Below, piece by piece: positions 3,525 to 19,638 of a stretch of DNA of 31,332 nt. The stretch lies in the IMG/VR virus record IMGVR_UViG_3300048014_000432, positions 1-31,332 of that record; one strand, given 5' to 3'. This stretch comes from a virus. The notes below the pieces were generated by a model. That model worked only from the letters and a program-made list of their open reading frames with translations. It ran no database searches and was not told the origin of the DNA. The translations under genes were made by a program, and so were the position numbers. Positions within the stretch are counted from its first letter, which is position 1. Each line of letters opens with the position of its first letter.

Positions 3525-6350
3525 TTACCTCGTTCCTGTGATGGTGTAGCTGGGGCCAGCGAAAGTGGCATCGGCGGGGTTTGGCGCATCAAGCTCCAGC
3601 ACATCGCCGGGATTTAAGATTACCTGGGCGGCGAACGTGAACGTGCCGGTCGTAGCACCGGCTGCGAAATCAATGCTGCCGATAAACGTGCCGCTCTGGT
3701 AGAGCGGCAGGGTGACCGCATTCGTGGGCGCCGTCTGGCAAACAGCGCGGCTTCCGGTGAGACCCGCAGGCAACGTGACGGCGCGCACCATCTCTATGCG
3801 GAACAGGATTTGCCCGGTGATAGGAATGCCCGGTAGATAGCCAGCGATATCGTAGGGATTAGCCCCGGAATTGGGCGCCACGGCCACCACCTGTCCGGAG
3901 GCGTTATAGGTAACGCCGCCATAGGTGCCGCTTGCGCCTAAAAGCGGAAAGCCCGTGCCGACCGGAGTATAAGTGTAAGCGGTGCAGGTCGATAAATCCT
4001 GCACGCCGCAGCCCCATATATTGAAGCTCTGCAGCTTGACGGTGATCGGCACGCCGACATAATCTTCCGACAGATCGTACTCGAAGATGGCACCGTCGAG
4101 GCGCGCGAATTGCGAACCCGCCGCATGCGCGGCCGGCGTGGTGCCATAGAGGCCGCGGTAAAGCGTGGTGAGATTATATAATCCCGTACCGGTGAGCGTC
4201 GCCGCTTCATACGACAGCAATTCGCCGTCGCAGTAGCACAGCGTGCGGTAAGCGGAGGCATCGGCGGGGGTGCCTGATGACAGCGTGCCGCCGCTCTCAT
4301 TCAAATTGACGGCCAGCGTATCTGAATTGTCCGGGTTAGCGCCGGTAAACGACCCAAGCGTCGAGGTCAGCACGCCCATCCGCGCCGGGCCGGTTATGGT
4401 GCCGACCATCGAATAATTCGTGCCATCCGCCGACAGCCAGACGTTGCATCCACCCCAATTCGGATCGGCCACGCCGCCCGCGCCCGCGGAAGCGGCAATC
4501 CACACCTGCGCCGTGCCACCGGTGAGCGTCGCATCCGGCTCAAAAATAACTGGCGCGTTCACCGAATCCGGAATTACGGCTGGATTAATGGCGAGATTGC
4601 TGGAATTGGTCTGTGTCGGATAAGCGGGGCTTGTCGCCGTGCCGGAAGGAAATTCCTCGGCGACGATGGTCAACATTCCCTGGTCATCCTCTTCGATGGA
4701 GGTAATGCGCACCGCCACCTGCGTCATGCCCATACCGCTATCGGTAAGCGTCACCAGATCCATCGGCTCCAGCAGGAAATATTCCCATGACAGCTTGAAC
4801 GTATAGGTGTTGCGGATATTGACCGACCGCTGGCAGATCAGGTTCGCGGCTGTTGTGGCAACCGAGGACTGCGTAAATTCATCGGCCTGAATCTGATCGG
4901 CAACGCGCAGGCCGAACTGCTCAATGCTCGCCTGGTCGCGCGCCTCGGCGATATTCGCGTTATAGAGAACCGTGTTATCGGAAAACTCAAGGCGGAAGCA
5001 ATTATAGGCATCGTTAGGATCGGAGCGGATCAGCTGCACCGGATCGGCGTTATCGGGTTTGACATAATCGCTATCCGTTAAATTATAGACGGGCGTGACA
5101 TTCGGCACGAACACATAGCCGTTGCCGCTCACCGGCAAATCGCCATACGGAATAGCTTTTAATACCGACCCCGACCATACGGCTGCGGTGTTGGTGATCT
5201 GAAACCAGCGCGCCAGCACGTCATTGGCTTTTTCCACCGATGCGAGGCTCGGCGAGAAATCCAGACCCAGCGCCCGGCAGTAGGTCTGCCATGATGCATC
5301 ACCGGTCGTGGTGGCGTTCGGGCCTGAAAACCACGATGCGTTATCGATGCAGTCGGAAGGCAGGCCCACGCCATGCAGGCCTGTCAGATAATCCTGCGCG
5401 ACCAGCGGGACATCGGCATCGCCGCGCCCATTGATGCCGGTATTGTAAAGCGCGCCGTAGGTTTCGACTTTCAGCTGCGGCAGGGCGTCATTCGAGCCAA
5501 GATCGAAATTAGCGGAACAGAGATAGGCGATGTAGCGGTAATTGAGCGCCTGCGATGCGTTGTAGGATACGAGCCAGCCCCATGCCGTCTGCGATGAACT
5601 GCCAAGGTATGCTGTTAAGCCGAGCGCACCGGGACTGCCATATTGATCTTTGCCTTTCCAAATATTGCCAAAGCCACTGATGGGGCCGCAGCAAATACCA
5701 AGAATAAGGCCGGTTTGATAATCGTAGCTGGTGGTTTTACTGCCGCCGCCATTATGCACCAGCACGCCATCAGCAAAATAATTGTGATGCGGCTCTATGG
5801 TAAGATTATAGGTGAAAGTTATGTCGGTGGAAGGAACGATTTCCCTGATGGCAACGATCTGCCCGTTTTCATAAAAAAGTGCATCTCCTACCTGCCAGTC
5901 CTTGGCTTCAATCTTCTCCCAGCCGTCCTTCCAAAGATAATGATTTTCAGTGACATGCAATTGCCCACGGTCATGGCGGATACGCAGCATGCGGTCATGG
6001 CTGTCATTCGCCACGTCATGCGCATGCACGAGCTTGACCCGTCCTTTAACCTTTTTGCCTGTTTCAGGGTTGGCGCACCATACCGCATCACCGCGCTTCA
6101 AATCGGCGATTGCGCGCGGGCCACGCGGCGTTGACACCAGCGTCTCCGGCGCAAAGCATCCGCTGCCGCCGCCTTTTCCGCCGTGAACCTTCTGGGCTAT
6201 GGCCTGGAAATTGCCATACCACAGCAGGTTGATGCCGCCAGCGGCGCGCCCCCAGATCATCGGCACCGGCAAGGTGGCGATGGACGTGTTGATGGCGATG
6301 TCGGTGAATTCCGGCTTCTGCGCTTTGCCGCCGCCGAAGAGCCAGCTCAT
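3525..6350 (-). CDS. Tail tip protein (GTA gp15/lambda J-like) with internal Hint domain
   Basis: A 941-residue protein. I start it at ATG 6350 (MSWLFGGGKAQ), with GGGG 7 nt upstream and an ATGA overlap with the peptidase gene; the GTG at 6362 would add four residues. After a short N-terminal segment (ALPVPMIWGRAAG-like, residues 25-50) comes the glycine-rich GGKGGGSG. This is interrupted by a 136-residue Hint domain (residues 65-200), then resumes GGGSKTTSYDYQTGLILGICCGPISG as in ordinary phage tip proteins. The rest resembles tip/megatron proteins, with a mid-region baseplate-like part (LEPMDLVTLTDSGMG) and fibronectin-like beta segments near 580-800. It should sit at the tail tip, guiding host contact and DNA delivery. 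It follows the DUF2460, hub and peptidase genes, the same order as in gene transfer agents. Confidence 0.9.
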   Translation of the reverse strand: MSWLFGGGKAQKPEFTDIAINTSIATLPVPMIWGRAAGGINLLWYGNFQAIAQKVHGGKGGGSGCFAPETLVSTPRGPRAIADLKRGDAVWCANPETGKKVKGRVKLVHAHDVANDSHDRMLRIRHDRGQLHVTENHYLWKDGWEKIEAKDWQVGDALFYENGQIVAIREIVPSTDITFTYNLTIEPHHNYFADGVLVHNGGGSKTTSYDYQTGLILGICCGPISGFGNIWKGKDQYGSPGALGLTAYLGSSSQTAWGWLVSYNASQALNYRYIAYLCSANFDLGSNDALPQLKVETYGALYNTGINGRGDADVPLVAQDYLTGLHGVGLPSDCIDNASWFSGPNATTTGDASWQTYCRALGLDFSPSLASVEKANDVLARWFQITNTAAVWSGSVLKAIPYGDLPVSGNGYVFVPNVTPVYNLTDSDYVKPDNADPVQLIRSDPNDAYNCFRLEFSDNTVLYNANIAEARDQASIEQFGLRVADQIQADEFTQSSVATTAANLICQRSVNIRNTYTFKLSWEYFLLEPMDLVTLTDSGMGMTQVAVRITSIEEDDQGMLTIVAEEFPSGTATSPAYPTQTNSSNLAINPAVIPDSVNAPVIFEPDATLTGGTAQVWIAASAGAGGVADPNWGGCNVWLSADGTNYSMVGTITGPARMGVLTSTLGSFTGANPDNSDTLAVNLNESGGTLSSGTPADASAYRTLCYCDGELLSYEAATLTGTGLYNLTTLYRGLYGTTPAAHAAGSQFARLDGAIFEYDLSEDYVGVPITVKLQSFNIWGCGVQDLSTCTAYTYTPVGTGFPLLGASGTYGGVTYNASGQVVAVAPNSGANPYDIAGYLPGIPITGQILFRIEMVRAVTLPAGLTGSRAVCQTAPTNAVTLPLYQSGTFIGSIDFAAGATTGTFTFAAQVILNPGDVLELDAPNPADATFAGPSYTITGTR
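5751..6158 (-). other. Hint/intein-like (BIL-type) domain inside the tail tip protein
   Basis: This domain spans 136 residues. It begins with a catalytic Cys (CFAPETLVSTPRGPRAI, block A) and continues with L-K-R-G-D. Block B is VTENHYLWKDGW, with the TxxH (T-E-N-H) intact. It ends with YNLTIEPHHNYFADGVLVHN (blocks F and G), with the His-Asn that drives C-terminal cleavage. No room exists for a homing endonuclease, so it is a minimal Hint module. The next residue is Gly, not Cys, Ser or Thr, so canonical splicing lacks its second nucleophile. That is the arrangement of type A bacterial intein-like domains, which cleave and sometimes splice. It is placed exactly inside a glycine loop (GGGSG before, GGGSK after). 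The motifs are seen directly; activity is inference. Confidence 0.92.
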
Positions 6351-6787
6351 GACAGACCCCACGGATTGAAGAAGCGTTGCCTCTTATTTTCGGATAATGG
6401 CGAAGGCAGCGATATATCGGATTCCACGACGCGACCTTCCGGCTGATAGGCGTGGACGACAAAAGGCCAGCCGACGACGATACCACCGTGGGCGAATGCG
6501 CGGCCTATCTTCCAGACCATGATATCGCCGGGCTGCGGCTCGGTTACCTCTATCCCGCGCTCCAGCAGAAAACCAAGGTACCGCTCGTCGTCGCGGTGAA
6601 GATGCCACTGCGGTGAGTAAGGGCGGGGATCGAAAGGCGGCACCACGCCGGTATCGACATAGACGCGCACCAGCAGCATGCCGCAATCCACGCCTGCGCC
6701 CAGCACATCACCCAGATGATGATAAGGCGTACCGATCCAGCGCCGGGCTTCTGCTACCACGGCGGCGCGCTGTTCAGATTCATTCAT
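6347..6787 (-). CDS. NlpC/P60-family tail peptidase (GTA gp14-like)
   Basis: A 146-residue cell-wall peptidase. The start at ATG 6787 (MNESEQRAAVV) is chosen because it lies 11 nt after the hub gene; the longer in-frame start at 6853 would run 22 residues into that gene. The NlpC/P60 fold is shown by ARRWIGTPYHHLG, then the nucleophile Cys35 in GAGVDCGMLL, His100 in AFAHGGIVVG, and a third polar residue, His112, in VVHAYQPEG. The Asp-Ile-Met-Val-Trp strand (GDIMVW) before His100 is typical. In GTAs and lambdoid phages (lambda K), such enzymes sit in the tail tip and cut peptidoglycan peptides during DNA entry. The stop overlaps the tip gene as ATGA. Confidence 0.92.
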   Translation of the reverse strand: MNESEQRAAVVAEARRWIGTPYHHLGDVLGAGVDCGMLLVRVYVDTGVVPPFDPRPYSPQWHLHRDDERYLGFLLERGIEVTEPQPGDIMVWKIGRAFAHGGIVVGWPFVVHAYQPEGRVVESDISLPSPLSENKRQRFFNPWGLS

Positions 6788-6797
6788 GATAATAGCC

Positions 6798-7676
6798 TCA
6801 ATACATCGCCAGTTCAGGCGGCGGTACAAACGGAAAGCCGCGAAAATTCGCAAGGTTGTTGAAACGGTTCTGGCAGGTTGCTAATGTTTTATCGCAACCC
6901 TTGTAAACCACGAAGCTATCGCCTGCGACTAGCGGATAATCCAGCGGACGCGAGAGCGATAAGCCCGATGTGCTAGAGGTTTGCACCGTGCGCGACACGC
7001 CGACATTCGCGCCGCTTTCAAACGTGATGGTGCCTTGATCATAGATATCCGCCGCCGACCCTGACCACGGAACAAAACCGAGCGTCGGGCTGTCACCCAC
7101 CGTGCCGGATGCGGCATTGGCCGTTTTGACCATGGTGCAAAGGCCGTCATAAAGGGTATTCAGGCAGCATGGCTGCCAGATGTCGCGGGGCATATCGACC
7201 GCGAGCTTATTCAGCATCGATTTGACGGTCATCTTACAGCTGAGACGACCGATATTATCGACGGTCGCCACCAGCCCATGAAAAACGATAATCGGAGTGC
7301 CGCCGATGATTGCTCCGCCCGGTGCCGTGAGCACCGCCCGCGCGCGCTCAATCGTCGCGCCATCAAACCTTCCTTCGCGCACGGCAATCGGCCAGGGCAG
7401 ACCGGCGAGCGTGGAAGTGGGTTTGAAGGAAATGTCGAGCGACTGCTCGTCAATATCAACGCCGCAGGTTTGCTTGAGTTTCAGCCCGTCGAGCAGAATA
7501 TCACCGGCGATAAATAAAAACGCGGGATTGCCGGGCTGCGGGACTATAACATCGTATTGCGCGTTCGTGTAGCGGGCGATGGTGCCATCGGCCAACGTGA
7601 TGGTGAAACAATCGGCAAAGGCAAGCTCCCGGCTCGCCTGCAGCGCGGAGATGACGGCGGAGGGCGCGGATTTCAT
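6798..7676 (-). CDS. Tail hub protein, DUF2163 + phage BR0599 C-terminal domain (GTA gp13-like)
   Basis: A 292-residue protein with the two-part plan of GTA gp13 proteins: an N-terminal DUF2163 part (residues 1-175, with the motif FKPTSTLAGLPWP near 85-97) and a C-terminal BR0599 domain ending KGCDKTLATCQNRFNNLANF-RGFPFVPPPE. Four cysteines (PCCLNTLYDGLC and the GCDKTLATC pair) are laid out as in tail-tip proteins of the lambda L type, which bind an iron-sulphur cluster; cluster binding here is inference. It forms the hub between the distal tail protein and the tip. Its ATG overlaps the stop of the DUF2460 gene by ATGA, so the tip module is translationally coupled. Confidence 0.9.
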   Translation of the reverse strand: MKSAPSAVISALQASRELAFADCFTITLADGTIARYTNAQYDVIVPQPGNPAFLFIAGDILLDGLKLKQTCGVDIDEQSLDISFKPTSTLAGLPWPIAVREGRFDGATIERARAVLTAPGGAIIGGTPIIVFHGLVATVDNIGRLSCKMTVKSMLNKLAVDMPRDIWQPCCLNTLYDGLCTMVKTANAASGTVGDSPTLGFVPWSGSAADIYDQGTITFESGANVGVSRTVQTSSTSGLSLSRPLDYPLVAGDSFVVYKGCDKTLATCQNRFNNLANFRGFPFVPPPELAMY

Positions 7677-8557
7677 GGCAGTACCGAGGTCAGTTTGAGT
7701 TCCTGCAGCGACCAGAGATTCGCCATGAATTCTTCGAAGTCCTGCGCATCCGCAGCAAAGCGGCAGACGAAGTAGTAACGGAATGATGCGGTTATCTGGC
7801 TGCCATCGGCAGGTGCCGTGTTAAAGGTAAGCGTATTAGGCGATGTATAAGCATAGCTGCTTGGGTCTTGCAGCACGCCCGCGACATACACGGCGGTCAG
7901 ATCGAACGGGAAAACATAGCCCACCGGCTCAGCTGCTTCACCCACCGTGCGCATCAATGGAAATACCGTGGTAACGCCATCTCCGGTGCCTTGATTACCC
8001 TGCGCCACATAGCTATCGGCGGTGTTCTGCGTGACCGCGCCCAGATCGAGCAGGAAGGTATCATATTGCCCTTGGCGCGCGAGAAAGAAGCCCATCAGCG
8101 TTTGTATTTCCTGAGTGGCGTCGCCGCGCAGCACGTCGAAGGTCAGCGTAAATTCATAAATCGCATATTGCTGCCAGGCGGTACGGATTTCGCGGCCTGA
8201 TACATGACCTGCCACGCGGGTATTGAATTTCGGGGCGACATGCGCGCTCCAGGTGAGGCCGGGCGCCAGTGGGAATTTTTCGGTGCTCACGGTTGGGGGA
8301 ACCTCTATTTGAACGAGACATTCGATAGCGACAAAGCCAAGCCTCAGCGGGGCCGTGCCTTTGGCGGCAGCTTCGGCAAAGGCGGCGTTCACCCGCGGCG
8401 GCGTAATGCCTTTCGCCGCCGCTTCGGCAAACACGTTACTCATCCGCGCGGGTGCCGTGGTTTTACCGGCCAACTCCACCAATGTCTGATTGATGTGTAC
8501 CGGCGCATCGCCTTTGGCGGCAGCTTCAGCGGTTACAAAATTGATACGGGCTGGCAT
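7673..8557 (-). CDS. DUF2460 distal tail protein with N-terminal AEAAAKG repeats
   Basis: A 294-residue protein. Residues about 95-294 match the DUF2460 (TIGR02217, GTA gp12) pattern: FPLAPGLTWSAHVAPKFNTR, ALGREIRTAWQQYAIYEFTL-like strands, then GFFLARQGQYDTFLL and the C-terminal FAADAQDFEEFMANLWSLQE. This family forms the distal tail ring under the tube. The first ~90 residues are an unusual addition: four to five tandem units of 18-19 residues with the core FAEAAAKGxAPxRVN, degenerating to NQTLVELAGKTTAPARM and IECLVQIE. Such repeats are not part of the core family and resemble the Q-x-x-VEVL repeats in the downstream short proteins. The start at ATG 8557 is 68 nt from the divergent brnT start. 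Confidence 0.88.
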   Translation of the reverse strand: MPARINFVTAEAAAKGDAPVHINQTLVELAGKTTAPARMSNVFAEAAAKGITPPRVNAAFAEAAAKGTAPLRLGFVAIECLVQIEVPPTVSTEKFPLAPGLTWSAHVAPKFNTRVAGHVSGREIRTAWQQYAIYEFTLTFDVLRGDATQEIQTLMGFFLARQGQYDTFLLDLGAVTQNTADSYVAQGNQGTGDGVTTVFPLMRTVGEAAEPVGYVFPFDLTAVYVAGVLQDPSSYAYTSPNTLTFNTAPADGSQITASFRYYFVCRFAADAQDFEEFMANLWSLQELKLTSVLP

Positions 8558-14685: not shown

Positions 14686-15117
14686 TTAAGCCTCTTCCTC
14701 AATTTCTAACTGAGCAACTTGCGTGGCTCCGCCATTAAAATACGAAGCAACAATATGGCCGAGAGCAACCGCACAAACACATAATATCACGGAAAGAAGA
14801 ATATTGGCCATCGGCCTGACTATGGAGCCGCTTCTGAAAAGGTCAAATGTCTGCAAACCGAAAGACGAAAATGTCGTGAAGCCGCCGCATAATCCTACCA
14901 TCACAAATAATCGGATATTTTCCGATACGGGAAACTTTCCGCTGGCAAGCGTCAAGGTGCCAAAAAATCCGATTATAAAACAGCCCAGGACATTGATGAT
15001 TAGCGTACCTAACGGCAACTCTTTACTAATAGGCATTGCCCATAAGGAAATGCCATAACGCGCAAGCGTCCCTATAGCGCCGCCAATTGATAAAAGTATA
15101 CATGTGTAGAAATTCAT
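14686..15117 (-). CDS. crcB: CrcB/Fluc fluoride ion channel
   Basis: A 143-residue inner-membrane protein with four hydrophobic helices. The Fluc signatures are all present: GGAIGTLARYG at 12-22, GTLIINVLGCFIIGFFG at 37-53, and GLCGGFTTFSSFGLQTFDLF at 75-94 with the TTFS core. It forms the dual-topology dimer that exports fluoride. The start at ATG 15117 (MNFYTCILLS) follows GGAG with 5-6 nt spacing; the in-frame extension to 15180 runs through the riboswitch leader. Expression should be controlled by the upstream fluoride riboswitch. The gene uses more AT-rich codons (several ATA, TTA, AGT) than the phage genes around it, which suggests recent transfer from another genome. The C-terminus ends in an acidic EIEEEA. 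Confidence 0.95.
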   Translation of the reverse strand: MNFYTCILLSIGGAIGTLARYGISLWAMPISKELPLGTLIINVLGCFIIGFFGTLTLASGKFPVSENIRLFVMVGLCGGFTTFSSFGLQTFDLFRSGSIVRPMANILLSVILCVCAVALGHIVASYFNGGATQVAQLEIEEEA

Positions 15118-15169
15118 ACATTCTCCTTCCATAAGGCGACCACCGCCGAAACGGTGCAGCCGGTTAATG

Positions 15170-15219
15170 GTAGGAGTCATCAGCTTGAAATAAGCGGTTA
15201 TCGGGGGAACCCCATCCCC
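15170..15219 (-). ncRNA. Fluoride riboswitch (crcB motif)
   Basis: On the minus strand the leader shows the crcB-motif core in order: GGGGATGGGGTTCCCCC (the G-rich/T-T-C-x-C-C hairpin with GATGG), ATAACCGC, then AAGCTGATGACTCCTAC, whose GATGACTCCTAC end is the most conserved part of this aptamer. It lies 50-100 nt upstream of the crcB start at 15117. The following bases (CACCG, TTTCGG, CGGTG) could form a small hairpin of an expression platform, but no clear U-rich terminator is visible, so control may be at translation. Crucial positions match the consensus I know. Fluoride binding is inferred from this match. Confidence 0.93.
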
Positions 15220-15275
15220 ATCGGCATTAAATTAGCATAAATAGTTTTGCTGGCAACGATAGTGTGAAACAAACT

Positions 15276-19561: not shown

Positions 19562-19638
19562 TGGAAGCGGGAGCCGGATTCGAACCGAGCGACCTCGTGG
19601 CTAATGAACCACGCGAGCTACCGCTGCTCTATCCCGCT
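19562..19638 (-). tRNA. tRNA-like gene, probable CAT anticodon (Met-type), degenerate
   Basis: 77 nt with an encoded 3' CCA. The acceptor stem is AGCGGGA with TCCCGCT, seven perfect pairs. The D arm is GAGC-AGCGGTA-GCTC. The T loop TTCGAAT is canonical. The anticodon stem CGTGG/CCACG is perfect, but the loop TTCATTAG has 8 nt instead of 7, with CAT as the likely anticodon. The T stem has a C-C mismatch or a bulge. It lies between the holin-like gene and the 83-residue gene, in the late operon, and is transcribed with them. Some tRNA detectors would score it low or as undetermined. It could be an active phage tRNA-Met, a decayed one, or a tRNA with altered decoding. Confidence 0.8.

Follow-up and report, generated by a model that had tools for sequence, protein, structure and literature searches.

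A type-A-BIL-like Hint domain in the glycine loop of a viral tail-tip hub, an arrangement that recurs across uncultured phages

Hint domains that cleave themselves are known in secreted bacterial proteins, in toxins and, as mobile inteins, in enzymes. The one considered here lies in a tail-tip hub protein of a virus, encoded within positions 1-31,332 of the IMG/VR record IMGVR_UViG_3300048014_000432 (hereafter the window, meaning the whole stretch of 31,332 nucleotides that was analysed). It occupies residues 65-200 of the 941-residue hub (136 amino acids; 5751..6158, on the minus strand, as are all the features given below), and its nearest relatives of solved structure are bacterial intein-like (BIL) domains. 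We consider it likely to be an active domain resembling type A BILs, which would remove itself from the hub by cutting at its N- and C-terminal ends, the flanks being ligated to a variable extent; such activity is suggested by its motifs, its predicted fold and its conservation.

According to reviews, BILs are located in the variable parts of bacterial proteins that are not conserved (PMC7765530, PMC5874633). Type A BILs have no nucleophile at the +1 position, form an N-terminal thioester and cyclise an Asn; their main outcome is cleavage, and ligation of the flanks can follow when the amine set free attacks the thioester (PMC4031507). With one of them, the C. thermocellum domain 2LWY, the window domain shares the Hint fold, Cys1, the block B motif TxxH, the terminal His-Asn and the lack of a +1 nucleophile. 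Class 1 inteins have the same fold and most of the motifs, but they use a +1 nucleophile (PMC4031507), whereas the window domain has Gly201 in place of Cys, Ser or Thr and carries no homing endonuclease, which is optional in that class; the phage members met in this analysis, in TerL, helicase and ribonucleotide reductase, are located in enzymes (PMC3556154). BIL2 of the Tetrahymena BUBL1 locus (6TMM, 6Y75) is the best fold match, but that domain makes isopeptide bonds and belongs to a polyubiquitin locus, where ubiquitin-like domains lie on either side of it (PMC8616854). Pretoxin HINT (PF07591), the best Pfam model, is named for preceding a toxin, whereas in the window the tail-hub domains Phage-tail_3 and Rcc01698_C lie downstream; a toxin-releasing role was rejected for this reason. 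As for tail tips, cleavage is also predicted in the glycine-rich linkers of lambda gpI and gpJ, the same kinds of tip protein, but there the predicted cutter of the gpI linker is the JAB protease of gpK, a separate protein and not an inserted domain (PMC1779556).

A sequence-only reading of this stretch had placed a Hint domain at 5751-6158 in a tip protein, and residues 65-200 map exactly to 6158-5751. The match is not a matter of chance, because the Pfam models PT-HINT (E=1e-11) and Hint_2 (6e-7), a BIL sequence match and the predicted fold all point to it; the NCBIfam intein end models match weakly. That type A BILs, which the reading had mentioned, are the closest kind agrees with the best sequence match in the PDB, 2LWY (2.6e-5), and with the structure: AlphaFold2, given a 42-row alignment, predicts an all-beta Hint domain with a predicted local distance difference test (pLDDT) score of 88, its fold uninterrupted over 136 residues, and Foldseek ranks Tetrahymena BIL2 (3e-12) and 2LWY (8e-12) ahead of all inteins. 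The motifs that it had named are in place: Cys65, the first nucleophile Cys1 (6156..6158); T134-E-N-H137, the TxNH form of block B (5940..5951); His199-Asn200 of block G, for Asn cyclisation (5751..5756); and the non-nucleophilic Gly201 at +1 (5748..5750). Asn182 in block F (Y-N-L; 5805..5807) has its counterpart in 2LWY, which also has Y-N here. Every residue that type A BIL chemistry needs is found in the domain. What differs is the distribution, since the domain occupies a fixed position, the glycine loop of the tip hub, which is conserved among virion proteins, and this mismatch is not mechanistic; judged by its sequence, the domain is a type-A-like variant.

The protein that carries it is a tail-tip hub of the gene transfer agent (GTA) megatron or lambda-J type (3528..6350, with its ATG at 6350). 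It matches Phage-tail_3 (6e-32) and Rcc01698_C (3e-17) in Pfam and PHROG 1101, a tail protein family (2e-79), and the full-length predicted model resembles the tip structures of JBD30, Chi, lambda J, T5 pb3 and the RcGTA particle. The Phage-tail_3 domain, the tip gene order and the fold match place it in this type; because it scores 126 of the 800 bits set as the cut-off of the NCBIfam GTA_megatron equivalog, we call it megatron-like and not a GTA equivalog. Its N-terminal segment, or N-extein (residues 1-64; 6159..6350), ends in GGKGGGSG and is kept in relatives with and without Hint; the C-extein (residues 201-941; 3528..5750) begins with GGGSK. The glycine loop had been taken to be otherwise continuous, and alignment with relatives bears this out: at 37-52% identity (Acinetobacter and Brevundimonas phages included) they have a short, unbroken loop such as SGGKGG, and a second tip in the related bacterial genome holding locus L098, 71% identical over residues 200-890, has the uninserted loop VGKGGKS.

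Close relatives with the domain were also found. Four IMG/VR contigs carry Hint-bearing tips 80-88% identical to that of the window, and a partial one (L094) ends with its contig just past T-E-N-H. Six loci in alphaproteobacterial or proteobacterial metagenome-assembled genomes (MAGs) have a domain region 74-79% identical to the window's, and a further Hint-bearing tip (L333) comes from another genome of the same order. In the 11-row alignment of the window with its close relatives, C1, TENH and HN are invariant and the +1 residue is Gly in every row. Hint also occupies this loop in a hub more distantly related (L121, 36% identical), where GKGGGG precedes C...HN and GGGGKGP follows. One MAG (G003, with L096 and L099-L101) holds several distinct Hint-bearing tip genes, some of them fragments with stop codons; these copies may represent several prophages or binned viruses.

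The sequence-only reading had treated the domain as a singular case, and in this it was mistaken: the window holds one instance of an architecture that recurs in J-type and gpI-type tips. Viral contigs were scanned with two DNA patterns, VHN-GGG and GGGxGCFxxxT, which favour intact domains and yield counts that are lower bounds. At least about 60 distinct Hint domains were found in glycine-rich segments of lambda J-, megatron- and gpI-type tips of uncultured viruses; many of them, among the matches listed, are near the N-terminus. Representative proteins are of the lambda J type (FNIII-A_GpJ up to 4e-41, PHROG 31 up to 8e-287) or of the gpI type (PHROG 32, 3e-24), the latter with Hint within the glycine linker. 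An alignment of 42 diverse tip domains, some of which share as little as 30% identity with that of the window, shows no variation at the -1 Gly, at Cys1, at T, N and H in block B, at the Asn of block F, at the terminal His-Asn or at the +2 Gly. The +1 residue in the wider set is Gly, Ala or Lys, and Thr once (L187).

One J family was scanned with patterns lying outside Hint, so that this sample is free of the bias toward intact domains. It comprises 53 Hint-bearing and 20 empty alleles, interleaved at 97-99% identity over the adjoining 280 residues, and all 53 Hint-bearing alleles keep every catalytic residue, with Ala at +1. The earlier reading had held that decay of Cys1 or His-Asn in relatives would mark the domain as inert; these residues are intact in the 11-row, 42-domain and 53-allele sets alike, and a decayed relic was rejected on these grounds. 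With the cutting residues kept in so many phages, such tips probably cut themselves while they are being assembled.

Several other arrangements came to light. Lambda J-type tips (L129-L205, L247-L326) bear an N-terminal motif, for example RIVGAGGGG, on both flanks of Hint, so that a cut at the C-terminal junction would by itself leave an N-terminus of normal appearance; the two copies agree at 2.24 of 5 positions against 1.87 in shuffled pairs (7/5000), a weak difference given that the sequences are related, and weaker in a narrower comparison. A second viral group (L110, L116, L118, L146, L173) has Hint at or near the C-terminus, the protein ending a few residues past HN. In genome contigs, bacterial and archaeal proteins (L102-L109) contain two to four tandem Hint domains with HN-KG(GGGG)C linkers and Lys at +1, followed by a further C-terminal region.

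How new is all this? A tblastn search of 50,697 deposited phage records with four Hint queries, a method that misses divergent domains, placed no Hint in J or gpI proteins, those of cultured relatives included; its matches were in helicases, terminases and other enzymes, an Erwinia virion protein and polymorphic-toxin-like proteins. No report of a Hint domain in a phage tail tip was found in the literature searched, which was mainly open-access. The type of domain and its chemistry are already known; its place, recurrence and polymorphism appear to be new.

By analogy with type A BILs, Cys65 would form a thioester with Gly64, and His199-Asn200 would cyclise, releasing Gly201 and letting the domain depart. 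Does the hub then remain in two pieces? Hydrolysis of the thioester would leave a two-chain hub of residues 1-64 and 201-941; alternatively, the new amine of Gly201 would attack the thioester and yield a ligated hub. Cleavage probably dominates over ligation, because it does so in other type A BILs. The outcomes would differ in their tryptic signatures: GGGSGGGGSK for the ligated hub, GGGSGCFAPETLVSTPR for the uncut protein, and chains ending at Gly64 or starting at Gly201 after cleavage. We expect removal to take place during folding or assembly rather than as a response to the host, self-removal at that stage being simpler than a trigger on host contact.

Several points weigh against active self-removal. 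Some BILs fail to splice without a +1 Cys, as in the M. magnetotacticum case (PMC4031507), and the conservation could partly reflect folding. The ratio of nonsynonymous to synonymous substitution rates (dN/dS) is 0.12 for the domain, compared with 0.06-0.10 in other parts of the gene; it indicates purifying selection, which speaks for activity, but it is rough because dS is near saturation. As for the lambda-like junction described below, the resemblance to gpI is confined to 24 columns, and the comparison of the C-extein with the J N-terminus is weak (22% probability). The invariance of Cys1 and of the terminal His-Asn is nevertheless hard to explain by folding. A catalytically silent domain, one that acts structurally in the tip as an insert or plug, could have kept its catalytic residues for folding, but exactly Cys1, TxNH and His-Asn stay invariant down to 30% identity, and nearly identical proteins have domain-free alleles, which are easier to reconcile with a domain that is removed than with one that stays as a structural part; we regard a silent insert as very unlikely.

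The same polymorphism, 53 alleles with the domain and 20 without, up to 99% identical nearby, might be expected of a selfish insert similar to a mini-intein, which would splice itself out cleanly, with ligation dominant, leave a one-chain hub like that of the Hint-less relatives and persist because it does no harm. The lower GC content of the domain (0.525 against 0.59 for the rest of the hub gene) and insertion only in glycine-rich stretches, which should tolerate scars, would suit such an element. An endonuclease domain, however, is absent from its 136 residues, and across the wider set a +1 nucleophile is lacking bar the single Thr, so that by known chemistry clean splicing would be inefficient; this explanation seems unlikely. 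The likeness to Tetrahymena BIL2, an isopeptide-bond former (PMC8616854), raises another: that the thioester joins the N-terminal segment to an amine of another protein and crosslinks the tip, as BUBL BIL2 does with ubiquitin-like domains. A ubiquitin-like domain is present in gpI (PMC1779556), and some gpI linkers contain Hint domains; but no acceptor is indicated, and the N-terminal piece before Hint in J-type proteins is just some 15 glycine-rich residues. Crosslinking is thus highly improbable, and self-removal remains the reading we favour.

Can a hub cut at this point still assemble? The domain is bracketed by predicted strands at residues 41-52 and 209-221, and the glycine stretches 54-62 and 201-206 are modelled with low confidence, as a flexible loop would be. 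The N-extein is similar to the C-terminal end of gpI: INTSIATLPVPMIWGR aligns with VNTxxQGLPVPIxYGR (hhalign 82%, E=1e-5). The gpI of lambda is a chain of its own, whose C-terminus contributes strands to gpJ sheets (PMC10721106), and fusions of gpI and J are known (PMC1779556). The Hint junction therefore appears, from these alignments, to correspond to the lambda gpI/gpJ chain break. A loop between two predicted strands, together with this correspondence, makes it plausible that a cut hub can still assemble, and by analogy a cut here would yield a two-chain hub of the lambda type. To a broader proposal, that Hint domains able to process themselves were taken up more than once by tailed phages into gpI-gpJ glycine linkers, the fused hub cleaving itself to the lambda-like two-chain form, we give about an even chance.

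The tip genes of the window run in the order DUF2460 (7673..8557), BR0599 or phiJL001 Gp84-type baseplate hub (6798..7676), both recognised by profile search, then NlpC/P60 peptidase (6345..6853; PF00877, 1.1e-5), directly upstream of the hub, and the hub itself. This order is familiar from gene transfer agents. A JAB domain was not detected by Pfam search in the NlpC/P60 protein. Hint as a general substitute for the gpI-cutting JAB protease was rejected, as all four phages checked with Hint in J or gpI have JAB nearby (in one just below the Pfam cut-off). Elsewhere in the window, a fluoride riboswitch (RF01734, E=1.7e-15) directly precedes a CrcB fluoride-channel gene (PF02537, 3e-29), the unit (14686-15228) adjoining a cytosine methylase gene and phage tail genes, and at 19562-19638 ARAGORN reports a tRNA-like element whose anticodon has four bases (catt).

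If the domain is active, an autoproteolytic step would become part of how the tip, the device for recognising the host and opening for DNA, is put together. Nature would also have provided a way of telling whether the tip hub functions as a single chain or as two, and the roughly 60 glycine-flanked BIL-like domains may find use in protein-ligation chemistry. The naturally paired alleles with and without Hint make the function of these domains testable.
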